This document shows positions 1,692-37,586 of a DNA stretch of 39,442 nucleotides, in pieces. Location: the NCBI GenBank assembly GCA_945787105.1, contig CALZGZ010000233.1, forward strand, positions 1 through 39,442, given 5' to 3'. Position numbers and translations under genes: made by a program. The DNA is from an uncultured Gammaproteobacteria bacterium. GTDB taxonomy: Bacteria; Pseudomonadota; Gammaproteobacteria; Arenicellales; JAANXG01. Below the pieces are notes generated by a model. It did no database searches and was not told the origin of the DNA. It worked only from the letters and a program-made list of their open reading frames with translations. Position 1 is the stretch's first letter; each line of letters begins with the position of its first letter.

Positions 1692-2258
1692 TCAGGCACG
1701 ATGGCGGCTTTCACCTTGCGTGATCCCGCTGGCGATAAGATGGGCTACGCGAATCGGTTCCGGCAATAATCCATGAACCGAGAGACGCGCTAATATATCT
1801 TCGACATCGCGCAGCCCGATACCAATGCGTTGCACATACACGCTCGATACCGGCTCCATCGGTCCCAACCGCTCTATAAGCTGCCATTTACGTCGTCCGC
1901 CAGGTACCTTGTCCAGCAACGCCTTTCTTATAGCCATGTAATTCGGCCGTTTGCGCGCCACCGCGATCACCGGGACCGCCAATTCAGAGTGCACACGGTT
2001 TAAATCAACTACGTTGAATCCCGCTACCGCCACACCCTGCAACAACACAGCATTCAAGTGACTGACAAAGCGTGACCGTTGAATCAAACCAACAATCGTG
2101 TCCGTGGCGTTGCGTCCGTCGCGCCTCACCCTACCCGAAAGCACTCCCTCTAAACGCAGATTGGCAAACACGGCGCCTACCAACAGCACGTCGCCGCGAT
2201 GTTGACGATCAAATGCGCCATCGTCAAACCCGATGACGTGCGACCAGCGTGTTCCCAT
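1692..2258 (-). CDS. DUF99 family protein (endonuclease dU-like)
   Basis: A 188-residue protein with the DUF99 signature in order: an N-terminal 'VIGFDDGAF' (acidic pair at residues 11-12), 'VGAVFANLRLEGVLSG', 'DGRNATDTIVGLI', 'GVAVAGFNVVDL', 'PVIAVARKRPN' and the C-terminal 'YVQRIGIGLRDVEDIL'. DUF99 proteins are found chiefly in archaea, have an RNase H/endonuclease V-like fold, and some are annotated as endonuclease dU; the Asp residues of GFDDG are likely metal ligands. A repair role on deaminated DNA is therefore family knowledge, not visible here. The ATG at 2258 is separated from the YbhB stop by 16 bases, so the two are likely one transcript. Copies of the same repeat flank the pair. 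No membrane or signal segment. Confidence 0.8.
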   Translation of the reverse strand: MGTRWSHVIGFDDGAFDRQHRGDVLLVGAVFANLRLEGVLSGRVRRDGRNATDTIVGLIQRSRFVSHLNAVLLQGVAVAGFNVVDLNRVHSELAVPVIAVARKRPNYMAIRKALLDKVPGGRRKWQLIERLGPMEPVSSVYVQRIGIGLRDVEDILARLSVHGLLPEPIRVAHLIASGITQGESRHRA

Positions 2259-2274
2259 GAATAACGCCGCGGAC

Positions 2275-2745
2275 CTAGCGCTGATACGTTCCGATTAGCT
2301 CGGCCTGGTCAAGGATGTGGTCAGCCATCGCCTGTTCAAGCTCCCGCTTGGTGGGGCTGCTCAGATCCGGCAGTTGCACATCAAGTGCGTATAACTTATG
2401 AAAATAGCGATGGCTACCGATCGGTGGACACGGACCGCCATAGCCGGTTCGTTGCCAGTCGTTGATTCCTTCCCGGGTTCCCGGGTGCAAATCGACGCTG
2501 CCTACACCCTCAGGAAGATCCGTGTCGCCCGGCGGCAGGTTGTAAAGCACCCAATGTACCCAGGTCATTTTCGGTGCCGCAGGGTCCGGGGCATCGGGGT
2601 CATCCACAATCAACACCAGGCTCTTGGCCGCCTCCGGTACACCGTGCCAACTCAGTGGTGGCGAGATATCGTCTCCATCACAGGTATATCGAGTCGGTAT
2701 CTCTCCATTCGGTGCGAAGGCGGCCGAGGTAATAACTAGTGTCAT
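2275..2745 (-). CDS. YbhB/YbcL family phosphatidylethanolamine-binding-like protein
   Basis: A 156-residue PEBP-fold protein. The ligand-pocket motifs are present: 'DDPDAPD' at residues 48-54, 'WVHW' at 62-65 and 'GYGGPCPPIGSHRY' at 101-114. The start is set at the ATG at 2745, which has a GGAG about 9 bases upstream; the longer open frame back to 2916 runs into the repeat element and reads as low-complexity sequence. E. coli YbhB and YbcL are small monomeric proteins of unclear function; the eukaryotic relative RKIP binds phospholipids and kinases. No signal peptide, so this one should be cytoplasmic. It is the upstream gene of a pair with the DUF99 gene, with the repeat just upstream, where it may supply or displace promoter sequence. 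Confidence 0.9.
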   Translation of the reverse strand: MTLVITSAAFAPNGEIPTRYTCDGDDISPPLSWHGVPEAAKSLVLIVDDPDAPDPAAPKMTWVHWVLYNLPPGDTDLPEGVGSVDLHPGTREGINDWQRTGYGGPCPPIGSHRYFHKLYALDVQLPDLSSPTKRELEQAMADHILDQAELIGTYQR

Positions 2746-2774
2746 GGCATTTGTCTCCACTGAGTCGCTAGCGT

Positions 2775-3047
2775 CTAGCCTGCATATTGCACCAAGGATC
2801 CCGGATGATGGCGAAGGGGTCGGGCGGCTGGACCCCCTGCTGTTCCCCTGCTGTGCGGGGACAGGCGCCGCGCTGGAGTGAAACCCGTAGCTAGCTATGG
2901 GTAGAGTGAAGCGCAAGTCCAGACGTTCGAGACCAAGCCAGCGCCGGGATAGGCGCAGACTGTCACACGAGATATTGCTCGAATTTCCTCATTCAAACAA
3001 ATCTTTAGTCTCTTCTTTACGCCGCCTTGGTGCAATATGCGGGCTAG
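2775..3047. mobile_element. MITE-like inverted-repeat element, copy 2, with 4-bp flanking repeat
   Basis: A 273-bp element bounded by 23-bp terminal inverted repeats (2775-2797 and 3025-3047) that differ at one position; the left end begins CTAGCCTGCATATTGCACC. The sequence GCGT stands directly outside both ends (2771-2774 and 3048-3051), as expected for a target-site duplication. Inside are the shared blocks 'GGATCCCGGATGATGGCG' (2796-2813) and TTCCCCTGCTGTGCGGGG (2843-2860), plus a local hairpin GGGGTC/GACCCC (2816-2836). There is no convincing ORF. The rest of the gap up to 3118 holds only an imperfect inverted repeat (GGTCAC 3065, GTGACC 3094) without a T run, just beyond the end of matA. 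Confidence 0.75.
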
Positions 3048-3118
3048 GCGTCCCGCTAGGTTTTGGTCACCACATGATTGGCCAAGTCCATCAGTGACCG
3101 CTAAGCTAGGCGTGAATT

Positions 3119-4519
3119 TTACGCAGCTGCGTCCAACATAGACTTGACCCGCTGGTAATCCCTGGCCATCGACTTTGACATCGCAATGGTGCCCGCATTA
3201 ACGAAATTTTCGTGATTGGCGATTACCATATCCGGATCGTATCGATAATTCACCATACATCCAAAAGATTGTCGAAGACCTCGTTCTGACACATCGGCAA
3301 ACGTATTGATTCGTTCTATGGCCGCGCCGTTTGCGAGATGAAACGCAGCCACCGGATCATGCAGGCTTCCGTCTTCACGACGCGCCCTAGTCAAATAAGC
3401 CAACACCGTTAATCGAAGCGCTTGCCGCAGTTCTTCGTGTTGTTGATTGCGCTCATCGCCCACTGCCGCTAACAAGGCCTCGATCACATCCTCCAAACCA
3501 GTGAGGTTGCGCAAATCATCGGCGAAAGCTCCCAAGACATTGCGCACCAAATTGGAATCAAAACCAGTTGGCAAGCCTTCAGTCGCGATGTTTTGCAACG
3601 CACTGGAGAATCTGGGAATTGGAGAAAGCGTGGTGAACGTATTAAGTGACGGAAATTCTTGCTGTAATTCGGCTAACACTTGCTTAATCAAGAAGTTCCC
3701 AAACGATATCCCACGTAATCCACGCTGCGTATTATTTATTGAATAAAAGATCGCAGTGTCGGCTTGTTGAGGCTCCGCAATAGGCAAATTCTGATCAATT
3801 AATGGTGGGATAGTTGTTGCAATCCCCTTCATTAGCGCCACCTGCACGAAAATGAGTGGCTCATCCGACAAGGCTGGATGGAAAAAAGCGAAACAGCGTC
3901 GATCCTCCGCTAATCGTCGACGCAGATCGTCCCAGCCCTTAATTTCATGCACTGATTCATACGCTATCAATTTCTCCAAGATGTGCGCCCGACTAGTCCA
4001 TTCGATGCGTTCGAGCCGCAAAAACCCGCGATTGAACCAGGAGTCGAATAGATGCTTCAGATCCGCATCTACAAGTCGTAGGTGGGGCCGGGCTCGTGCC
4101 AAACGAATTAAATCAGAACGCATGTCGACTAATGCCTTGGTTCCATACGGCGCCATATTCAATTGTCGAAACAGCTCTTGTCTGGGAGGCTCCACCGCTT
4201 GAATTAACTTGAGCAAATCATCGTCATGCTTCGTTTCAAAATATCTCTGTGCAGTACCGCTAATTTCACTTAGGTTCGGTCCGAAACGTGAATACAGTAG
4301 CTCGAAAAACTGAATGCGTTGTGCATCGTCCATGTCTGAATACCATTGCAAAATATCCCTCGCTATGGCGATTGATGACGCCTCACCATAGCCATCGAGC
4401 AGTTTTTGACACCATTCCTCCATTGAATGGCCATCGCTTTTCCCTGCTTGCATGCGTAGCAGTTCACGACCGCGGTCGGCGACGGTCTCCATAAGACGGT
4501 CCAGCCACTGCGTTCTCAT
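3119..4519 (-). CDS. matA: Malonyl-CoA decarboxylase
   Basis: A 466-residue protein of the malonyl-CoA decarboxylase family, which converts malonyl-CoA to acetyl-CoA and CO2. The first two thirds are the helical domain; the catalytic domain carries 'TLSPIPRF' with Ser299 and 'FHLANGA' with His394. These match the Ser-His dyad described for the human enzyme, with the same spacing. 'GISFGNFLIKQV' and 'SFGCMVNYRYD' are further family motifs. The start is the ATG at 4519, which overlaps the stop of matM (TAATG); an upstream extension would read through the transporter gene. It is the last gene of a matP-matQ-matM-matA operon, the order known from rhizobial malonate loci. Cytoplasmic. Very confident about the family, and context supports malonate use. 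Confidence 0.95.
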   Translation of the reverse strand: MRTQWLDRLMETVADRGRELLRMQAGKSDGHSMEEWCQKLLDGYGEASSIAIARDILQWYSDMDDAQRIQFFELLYSRFGPNLSEISGTAQRYFETKHDDDLLKLIQAVEPPRQELFRQLNMAPYGTKALVDMRSDLIRLARARPHLRLVDADLKHLFDSWFNRGFLRLERIEWTSRAHILEKLIAYESVHEIKGWDDLRRRLAEDRRCFAFFHPALSDEPLIFVQVALMKGIATTIPPLIDQNLPIAEPQQADTAIFYSINNTQRGLRGISFGNFLIKQVLAELQQEFPSLNTFTTLSPIPRFSSALQNIATEGLPTGFDSNLVRNVLGAFADDLRNLTGLEDVIEALLAAVGDERNQQHEELRQALRLTVLAYLTRARREDGSLHDPVAAFHLANGAAIERINTFADVSERGLRQSFGCMVNYRYDPDMVIANHENFVNAGTIAMSKSMARDYQRVKSMLDAAA

Positions 4520-5835
4520 TATTGTTTTGTTCCCATCAGGTAGTCCGGTAACCACGTGGCAATTTGAGGAAACACGCACAAAAGTACAATACCGATGACC
4601 ATGCAGAGCATAAATGGCAGCGCCCCCCATAGCACTACCGGTAGCTTTACATCAGGAACAATACCGTTGATGACGTACAAGTTGAGGCCTACAGGAGGAG
4701 TTATCAGGCCTATCTCCATATTCACCGTCAATACAACGCCGAACCATATCGGGTCAAATCCGGCCTGCGTAATGATCGGCAGGAGCGTCGGCGTGGTCAT
4801 CAAGATCACCGCCACCGGTGGCAAGAAGAACCCGGCGACGAGCAAAAAGATATTGATGAACAGCAACAGTGTCCACCGGCTCACGTCTAGCGTAGCAATC
4901 CACTCGGCGATCCCTTGGGTAATGTACAAGGTCGACATCATGTAACTGAACAACGCCGCCATCCCAATGATCAGCATCAGCATCACGGATTCGCGGGTGG
5001 CGGTCCTCAAGATCGCCCACAACGCAGCCGGCCGCCACACCTTGTAGATCAGCATCACCAACATGATCGCAAAAAAGGCGCCGACACCCGCTGCCTCCGA
5101 AGGCGTCGCAACACCACCATACAATGCCCACAACACGAGCACGATGATGATCAGAAACGGGATGACCTTAGGCAAGATGATCAGTTTTTCTTTCAGTGAG
5201 AAACTCTTATCCTCTTCGGTAAATCTATAGCCCTTGGTGTACGCGTATATCCACGCCCAGGCCATAAACAACAACGTCAGCATGATGCCGGGCAGCAAAC
5301 CAGCGATGAACAACCGGCCGATAGACGTCTCGGTTGAGATGCCATAGACAATCATGGTGATACTGGGGGGGATCAGAATCCCGAGCGTGCCACCGGCGGC
5401 AATGGCCCCTGTCGCCAGTCCCGCGGGGTATCCGCGCTTGCGCAGCTCGGGAATCCCCATTTTACCGATGGCCGCGCAGGTCGCCGGTGACGAGCCGGTC
5501 AATGCCGCGAACACACCACATGCGCCGATATTGGAGATCAGCAAACCTCCCGGGACCCGATACAGCCAACGGTCCAGCGCCTCATAGAGATCTGCACCGG
5601 CGCGGGATGCGGCCACCGCGGCGCCCATCAACAGAAACATGGGGATCGACAACAACGCGAATTCATCTAGGCCGCCAAACAGGGTCTCGGCAATGACGTT
5701 AAAACTGCCGGGGCCGTCGACAATCAGCAGAAACACAATCGCCACCGATCCCAGTGCAAACGCCACGGGCATGCCGGTGATCAAGAATAGTATTAACGTG
5801 CCCGCCGCCAGTACGCCCCAGCCCAGTTCGGACAT
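4519..5835 (-). CDS. matM: TRAP transporter large permease (DctM type), probably for malonate
   Basis: A 438-residue, very hydrophobic inner-membrane protein with about twelve predicted membrane spans. It has family landmarks: 'LFLITGMPVAFALG' at the N-terminus, 'LSIPMFLLMGA' near residues 62-72, 'GSSPATCAAIGKMGIPELRKRGYP' and 'AAGGTLGILIPPSITMIVYG'. DctM subunits form the ion-coupled channel of tripartite ATP-independent periplasmic transporters. Its ATG overlaps the TGA of the small permease gene (TGATG) and its own stop overlaps the matA start, so translation of the three is coupled. The substrate is inferred from the adjacent malonyl-CoA decarboxylase; other C3-C4 dicarboxylates such as methylmalonate are possible. 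Confidence 0.9.
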   Translation of the reverse strand: MSELGWGVLAAGTLILFLITGMPVAFALGSVAIVFLLIVDGPGSFNVIAETLFGGLDEFALLSIPMFLLMGAAVAASRAGADLYEALDRWLYRVPGGLLISNIGACGVFAALTGSSPATCAAIGKMGIPELRKRGYPAGLATGAIAAGGTLGILIPPSITMIVYGISTETSIGRLFIAGLLPGIMLTLLFMAWAWIYAYTKGYRFTEEDKSFSLKEKLIILPKVIPFLIIIVLVLWALYGGVATPSEAAGVGAFFAIMLVMLIYKVWRPAALWAILRTATRESVMLMLIIGMAALFSYMMSTLYITQGIAEWIATLDVSRWTLLLFINIFLLVAGFFLPPVAVILMTTPTLLPIITQAGFDPIWFGVVLTVNMEIGLITPPVGLNLYVINGIVPDVKLPVVLWGALPFMLCMVIGIVLLCVFPQIATWLPDYLMGTKQ

Positions 5836-18983: not shown

Positions 18984-19307
18984 GGCCCGCATATTGCGCC
19001 CAGGCGGCGAACGTAAAACAAAAATAATTGTATGGCAAAATTAATCTGATCAATGGCCAACATAACGCTTGGTGTCCAAGCCGGTACCTATCCCAGCGCT
19101 GGCTTGGTCTCGAACGCCGGGACTTGCGCTTTATTCAACAGCAAAGACGGGGTCGGAGTCACCGACCCGGACCCCCATTCCTCATCGCTCCAGCGCGTCG
19201 CCTGTCCCCGCCTTGTCCCCGCACAGCAGGGGAACAGCAGGAGAACGACGCGCAGGAAAAGTCCCTGCGCCATCATCCGGGATCCTAGGTCCATAGTTGC
19301 GGGCTAG
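18984..19307. mobile_element. MITE-like inverted-repeat element, copy 3 (long form)
   Basis: A 324-bp element with diverged ends: GGCCCGCATATTGCGCC (18984-19000) on the left, and on the right (19284-19307) the approximate complement, ending GTTGCGGGCTAG. The shared internal blocks occur in reverse orientation relative to copies 1 and 2: CCCCGCACAGCAGGGGAA (19217-19234) and CGCCATCATCCGGGATCC (19268-19285). A 7-bp hairpin GGGTCGG/CCGACCC lies at 19150-19168. A tandem TGTCCCCGCC/TTGTCCCCGC duplication occurs at 19203-19222. It takes up most of the 483-bp gap between matB and rimO; the remaining about 100 bases before rimO hold nothing recognisable. Confidence 0.6.
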
Positions 19308-32518: not shown

Positions 32519-32527
32519 TGACAAACT

Positions 32528-32568
32528 AAAAACAGGGGTCGGAATCACAGAGTCCGGCCCCTGTTTTT
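32528..32568. terminator. Bidirectional intrinsic terminator
   Basis: AAAAACAGGGG (32528-32538) and CCCCTGTTTTT (32558-32568) pair, with an additional CGGA/TCCG step after a one-base mismatch, around a short loop. A runs and T runs flank both arms, so it can end the phosphoribosyltransferase transcript and the opposing isoaspartyl peptidase transcript. The remaining 99 bases to 32668 hold nothing else. Confidence 0.85.
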
Positions 32569-32667
32569 GCGTTGTTTGCATTAGATCAAATGCTGATAAC
32601 GGCAAGCCCGAAGACCTCGGGATGAGACCACATGCCGCCCATCGCCTACAGCTTGAAACCTGTCTAC

Positions 32668-34980: not shown

Positions 34981-35037
34981 GCCATCGACACCGCCAAATC
35001 AATTATTTGACATTCGCCTGAATATCCAAACACGGCA

Positions 35038-35130
35038 CTCGAGAAAGACCTTATTCGCCTGTTTGATTTTACAAAGGCGACAGCAAAGCAGCTGTTCGAT
35101 GACAAATCGGAAGGCGGCGGGAAGGTATAG
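35038..35130 (+). pseudogene. Decayed 5' copy of the kbp (BON-LysM) gene
   Basis: The 72 bases at 35059-35130 match the start of the intact kbp gene (37161-37232) at about 60 positions without a gap, and a weaker match extends upstream over the ribosome site to 35038 and probably beyond. The start ATG has become ATT, and the codon for Lys26 has become TAG. The copied protein segment would read 'LFDFTKATAKQLFDD' against '[15 protein letters not shown]'. Nothing beyond residue 25 is recognisable. The remaining bases of this 312-bp gap (34981-35292) show no gene on either strand. Confidence 0.8.
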
Positions 35131-37115: not shown

Positions 37116-37154
37116 CGCCCAGCGATATAACCATACCAACTCGAGGAGGACTTT

Positions 37155-37586
37155 ATGGGGCTGTTTGATTTTGCAAAGGCGATAGGAAAGAAGCTGTTCG
37201 ATGACGAGGAGGAAGGCGGCGAGAAGATCAAGCAACATATCGAAACCGACAATCCGGGGATTGATGGCCTCGATATCGTGGTCTCTGATGGTATCGCCAA
37301 GGTTAAGGGTAAAGCGAGGGACCGCACGGCCATGGAGAAAGCGGTACTGATGGCGGGCAACGTACTCGGTATCGAAGCCGTGAATGCCGACGAACTCAGC
37401 GCGCCGCCAGAAGAACAAAAAGTCGAGTATTACGAGATCCAAAAAGGTGACACGCTGTGGGCGATCGCCAAGCGGTTCCTGGGGAACGGCAGCAAATATC
37501 CGGAGATATTCGAGGCCAATCGAGAGGTGATCAAGGATCCGGATTTGATCTACCCCGGCCAGAAGATCCGCATTCCATTACCTTGA
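37155..37586 (+). CDS. kbp: BON-LysM potassium-binding protein Kbp (YgaU)
   Basis: A 143-residue protein close to E. coli Kbp/YgaU. The N-terminal '[17 protein letters not shown]' leads into a BON domain (about 20-85: '[50 protein letters not shown]'), followed by a LysM domain (about 92-143: '[49 protein letters not shown]'). Kbp is a cytoplasmic K+ sensor in E. coli and rises under osmotic stress. The ATG at 37155 has GAGGAGG 8 bases upstream. The gene is monocistronic and ends in a strong terminator. An inactive copy of its 5' end is at 35038. Confidence 0.95.

Follow-up and report, generated by a model that had tools for sequence, protein, structure and literature searches.

A patchwork family of non-autonomous transposons with YTAR target sites, probably mobilised by IS1380-family transposases, in uncultured Gammaproteobacteria

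An inverted-repeat element in the analysed window, that is, the whole 39,442-nucleotide stretch of DNA studied here (contig C233 of genome G000), is a member of a new family of non-autonomous transposons (MITEs) of a known kind: fairly ordinary as mobile DNA goes, but unusual in how patchwork its interior is. We consider it very likely, judging from sequence comparisons, that the element is a MITE with the ends CCYGCATATTGCACCA that duplicates a YTAR target and would be mobilised in trans by an IS1380-family transposase. No host function is indicated. The MITE reading had been put forward in an earlier note made from the letters of the window, and it is upheld by the high copy number, the inverted ends, the 4-bp duplication and the pairs of filled and empty sites described below.

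Anatomy of the window copy

The element proper is 265 bp long (positions 2779-3043) and is bordered by CTAG at 2775-2778 and 3044-3047. Its near-perfect inverted ends, which the earlier note had recognised, are the complementary arms 2775-2797 and 3025-3047, which differ by one mismatch at the seventh base (CTAGCCT versus CTAGCCC); these arms of 23 bp consist of the terminal inverted repeats plus the outer CTAGs, and the inverted repeat of this copy reaches 26 nt at 92%. The element was also correctly described as lacking coding capacity; it carries no transposase gene. Its parts are as follows.

2775-2778, no strand: left copy of the target-site duplication, CTAG
2779-3043, + strand: MITE proper, 265 bp; left boundary identical in the orthologous copy of G005
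2779-2797, + strand: left terminal inverted repeat, CCTGCATATTGCACCAAGG
2833-2865, + strand: inner hairpin-repeat block, 33 bp (CCCCCTGCTGTTCCCCTGCTGTGCGGGGACAGG); absent in the orthologous copy of G005
2871-2951, + strand: conserved inner module (consensus length 83 bp), common to both end-types of the family
2952-3024, + strand: variable 3' arm, one among several exchangeable types
3025-3043, - strand: right terminal inverted repeat
3044-3047, no strand: CTAG, the target-site duplication on the right; this may instead be a CTAG from further downstream that a ~180-bp deletion moved up to the element

The host locus at 1692-5835 encodes an endonuclease dU-like protein, a phosphatidylethanolamine-binding protein, a malonyl-CoA decarboxylase and a TRAP transporter DctM component, and two MITE copies occupy intergenic gaps of this endonuclease dU-like/DctM locus. 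Elsewhere in the window, 35037-35124 and 37139-37226 form an 88-bp direct repeat with 83% identity, 2.1 kb apart, which is probably duplicated coding sequence.

Target-site duplication and insertion boundaries

Flank statistics were collected over 105 unique paired elements. The flanking tetramer was YTAR on the left in 69 of the 105 and on the right in 65, with an order of preference of CTAG over TTAG and CTAA, and of these over TTAA. Identical direct 4-mers stood at both flanks of 26 of the 105 copies, compared with 16.3 expected by shuffling (P 0.003). Among non-palindromic 4-mers, for which only 8 copies are informative, 7 were direct and 1 was inverted, compared with shuffled means of 3.0 and 3.4, respectively (P 0.02).

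Comparison of empty and filled sites, which the earlier note had proposed, confirmed in relatives that the ends are insertion boundaries. The empty locus L109 reads AATTCC-CTAG-CGAA and the filled locus L089 reads AATTCC-ATAG-element-CTAG-CGAA; in the reverse case, L113 is filled and L027 is empty, and in such pairs excision and non-insertion are indistinguishable without an outgroup. Because the flank statistics and these two clean empty sites agree, we delimit the element to 2779-3043, with CTAG as its duplication. The identification of the flanking 4-mer as a YTAR target duplication is thus supported.

The GCGT that had been noted directly outside the ends does adjoin both of them (2771-2774 and 3048-3051), but this is a coincidence and not a target duplication: an identical 4-mer occurs in that place in 1 of the 105 paired copies, the window copy alone. 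In the sister species G005, GGGT stands to the left of the element, while the GCGT on the right lies ~180 bp away from it, so that GCGT cannot be read as a duplication; the left GCGT of the window copy is a substitution of GGGT. The element is found at the same place in G005, in the order GGGTCTAG, element, CAAG, followed by the ~180 bp missing from the window. In G003, the ~180 bp is present and the element is absent. Since G005 is filled and G003 is unfilled with the ~180 bp in place, the window copy was inserted before the split of G000 and G005, and a deletion of ~180 bp possibly joined its right end later to the downstream CTAGGCGT.

The same boundaries bear on a REP/RAYT-type or other single-strand transposition of a hairpin element by an HUH Y1 transposase, which would suit the hairpin-rich interior and the palindromic inner units. 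HUH elements leave no target duplication and do not need terminal inverted repeats, whereas the precise boundaries found here, with both of these features, are signs of DDE cut-and-paste transposition. We give the single-strand route next to no credence.

Copies in the genome and in relatives

Copy numbers were derived from searches and fetched regions, the genome G000 being a 4.8-Mb assembly, 97% complete, in 388 contigs broken at repeats. The earlier note had made its reading depend on further copies in the genome, and these are plentiful, well above what chance would give: a 281-bp query (the whole element with flanks) gave 49 matches, the inner block CCCCTGCTGTGCGGGG gave 219 versus 0 for a reversed-pattern control, and the end motif YTARCCYGCATATTGCACCA, at up to 3 mismatches, gave 405 versus 2 for its reversed pattern. 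With two ends per intact copy, the 405 end matches correspond to ~200 copies, or ~1% of the genome; single unpaired ends are truncated copies or contig ends. Both related copies that had been located in the window, at 1534 and 18984, are present.

1538-1641, + strand: short second MITE copy of 104 bp, flanked by CTAA (1534-1537) on the left and TTAA (1642-1645) on the right
18986-19303, - strand: third MITE copy, of 318 bp, with CTAG (19304-19307) as its right flank and a degenerate TTGG as its left

The place corresponding to the second copy carries no element in G003 and G005, and the third copy has a GGGGTC palindrome in its inner hairpin.

Loci with the same element in relatives came from genomes of uncultured Gammaproteobacteria bacterium. 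The end motif is plentiful in four of five congeners (164-337 matches), with 25 matches in the incomplete G002; it varies across the same family from 3 to 250 matches per genome and is rare across the order, G017 and G083 being among the few exceptions. Most of the present copies are old, the best within-genome identity of near-full-length pairs having a median of ~81%, and a few are near-identical and recent: sequence 98-100% identical was found at contigs C2, C3, C205 and C326 of G000, two of which have the same flank and may represent one site. At L200 (contig C205), a recent copy is nested in the conserved module of an older one. A truncated 3' half lies directly upstream of a valS-like gene (L055, 1501-1700), and another copy sits amid a tRNA gene cluster identified with Rfam (L074, contig C91 of G000).

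An IS1380 partner in congeners

The PF13701 profile yielded good matches in G001, G004 and G006, all of which are IS1380 transposases by NCBIfam NF033539. The one in G001 (L164) is intact, a 437-aa frame with no stops, and its insertion sequence has TTAG-CCCGGATATTGCACGA at one end and a counterpart to it on the right; the right flank has no clean duplication. Its ends differ from the MITE end at 2 and 3 of 16 positions, and in shuffled 50-bp windows 3 or fewer mismatches arise with P ~3e-4 per end. A search for a full-length element with matching ends, as the earlier note had advised, therefore led to an IS1380 insertion sequence in a congener with nearly identical ends; an autonomous element whose ends are identical to those of the MITE was not found. 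The IS1380 copy in G004 (L165) has CTAG-CCTGGATTTCTCACC at both ends and that in G006 (L166) has the end CCCGCATTTCTCACC, and this second end type also occurs on MITEs bearing the same 83-bp inner module. Decayed 5' remnants of the L164-type insertion sequence are present in the MITE-rich G004 and G007. MITE abundance does not track IS1380 presence, G005 and G003 being MITE-rich without a strong match. Derivation of the MITE interior from the insertion sequence was rejected, there being no similarity past the ends save one 14-nt match. At L164 (1395-1470), the transposase start lies downstream of an inverted repeat, AAGGCGAAGCC..GGCTTCGCC, which in the mRNA might hide the start codon.

Because the ends and the target are shared, we infer mobilisation by the IS1380 transposase of L164 or a near relative of it and, because no IS1380 gene is assembled in G000, mobilisation in trans. 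Under the proposed mechanism, a gene-less DNA transposon would integrate at YTAR tetramers and duplicate them, its copies being moved in trans, most likely, by an IS1380-family DDE transposase, and the family would have been amplified by an IS1380 element since lost from G000 or missing from its assembly. No IS1380 gene, whole or broken, and no autonomous IS1380 element was detected in G000 (97% complete, 388 contigs) by profile and protein search, which would also fit a transposase of some other YTAR-duplicating family, such as the IS5 group, whose elements duplicate YTAR tetramers. However, the IS1380 copies of congeners bear both MITE end-types, one of them flanked by CTAG left and right, and we know of no resemblance between IS5-group ends and CCCGCATATTGCACCA; we regard such a source of mobility as unlikely.

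A mosaic interior that changes in place

MITE copies are ~100-390 bp long and modular, running from a left end with an GGATCCCGGATGATGGCG segment through a stretch of hairpin units, the 83-bp module and a 3' arm to the right end. The hairpin units, of 11 or 22 bp (TTCCCCTGCTG / GGGGACAAGGC), number from zero to several per copy, and the 83-bp module is combined with either of two end-types, GCATATTGCACCA or GCATTTCTCACCA. A CRISPR-like reading of the palindromic CCCC-TGCTGTGC-GGGG unit was discarded, as the units are spaced at 11, 22 or 33 bp with no unique spacers. A further dispersed palindrome, smaller than these units, reads GGGGTCTGAATT..AATTCAGACCCC or GGGGTCGGAGTC..GACTCCGACCCC; its flanks are rich in A/T, it occurs alone or within MITE copies, and it may be a REP-like element.

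32521-32575 and 19149-19180 of the window, and L018, L042, L051, L108, L151 and L225: sites of the smaller dispersed palindrome

Orthologous sites differ in their interiors. The 11/22-bp hairpin repeats are present or absent at such sites, and the 33-bp hairpin block of the window copy is missing from its G005 orthologue; the inner block is thus not, as the earlier note had held, among the best conserved inner parts, a position that belongs to the 83-bp module. The pairs L063/L112 and L058/L158 have common flanks and differing 3' arms. Interiors would accordingly have been altered after insertion by recombination between copies, with 3' arms exchanged at orthologous sites, and the 11/22-bp repeats gained or lost, probably via replication slippage.

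The type-b 3' arms comprise several distinct stem sequences, each with a matching partner: on average, 12.2 of 14 stem positions pair within their own arms versus 10.6 when arms are swapped, and the maximum of 2000 shuffles was 11.2. Whole-arm exchange between copies, together with palindrome correction, is sufficient to explain this matching, and selection on the fold of the arm is possible. It is rather unlikely, in our estimate, that the foldback arms are cassette-like, kept complementary by selection or active exchange and swapped as units between copies at fixed sites, with the extruded hairpin or its RNA acting in transposition or serving the host.

The stems covary, and the element folds far better than shuffled controls do (z -7.2 for one strand and -6.1 for the other); both could also point to a repeat selected primarily as a structured RNA or regulator, such as a terminator, processing site or riboregulator, and mobile only incidentally. 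Yet no Rfam family matched the window or the elements, and neither a known family nor a conserved covarying fold was found for the 83-bp module, for which 86 aligned sequences gave a consensus fold of -0.75 kcal/mol, that is, no consensus RNA structure. By crude open-reading-frame gene calls, all four gene-pair layouts harbour copies, with no bias in orientation or layout, and many copies are truncated or degenerate. Moreover, the fold energy is owed largely to the terminal inverted repeats, and covarying stems can arise through palindrome-perfecting template switching and whole-arm exchange. Selection for a structured RNA as the primary explanation is very unlikely.

Comparison with known systems

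The family has the hallmarks of bacterial MITEs: it is short (~100-390 bp, against about 30-400 bp for such elements), present in many copies and devoid of a transposase gene, with terminal inverted repeats and a 4-bp YTAR target-site duplication; empty sites show its insertion to be precise, and its ends are shared with an autonomous element (the G001 IS1380, at 2 and 3 mismatches of 16). Bacterial MITEs can make up to ~2% of a genome (PMC3281130). Size, copy number, lack of coding capacity and ends of an IS family are common to Correia/NEMIS, Nezha, Chunjie and the TIMEs of Pseudomonas, from which the present family differs in IS family and target site and in its mosaic interior, built of hairpin repeats and arms that can be exchanged.

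Within the IS1380 family (PF13701, NF033539), the terminal inverted repeats of L164 are nearly those of the MITE, and the second MITE end type matches L165 and L166, with CTAG duplications at L165; unlike these insertion sequences, the MITE has no transposase gene, and its interior is unrelated to theirs. For IS1247, another IS1380-family element, the tabulated repeat is 5 bp (PMC3281130), in contrast to the 4 bp of the MITE family. IS1380 transposases have been regarded as remote prokaryotic kin of piggyBac transposases and have served as an outgroup to them (PMC10140906). The eukaryotic piggyBac superfamily resembles the MITE in a 4-bp TTAA-type duplication adjoining CCC...GGG ends, whereas the MITE is bacterial, has the looser target YTAR, most often CTAG, and contains no transposase.

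Our search of the open-licence literature brought up no bacterial MITE family that is both abundant and linked to IS1380. The present family is such a case, joined to these prokaryotic relatives of piggyBac by a tie that very likely reflects mobilisation in trans. The same insertions with different interiors in sister species record, in nature, the evolution of MITE interiors at fixed sites, and the copies explain contig breaks and repeated intergenic sequence in the genomes of these uncultured bacteria.
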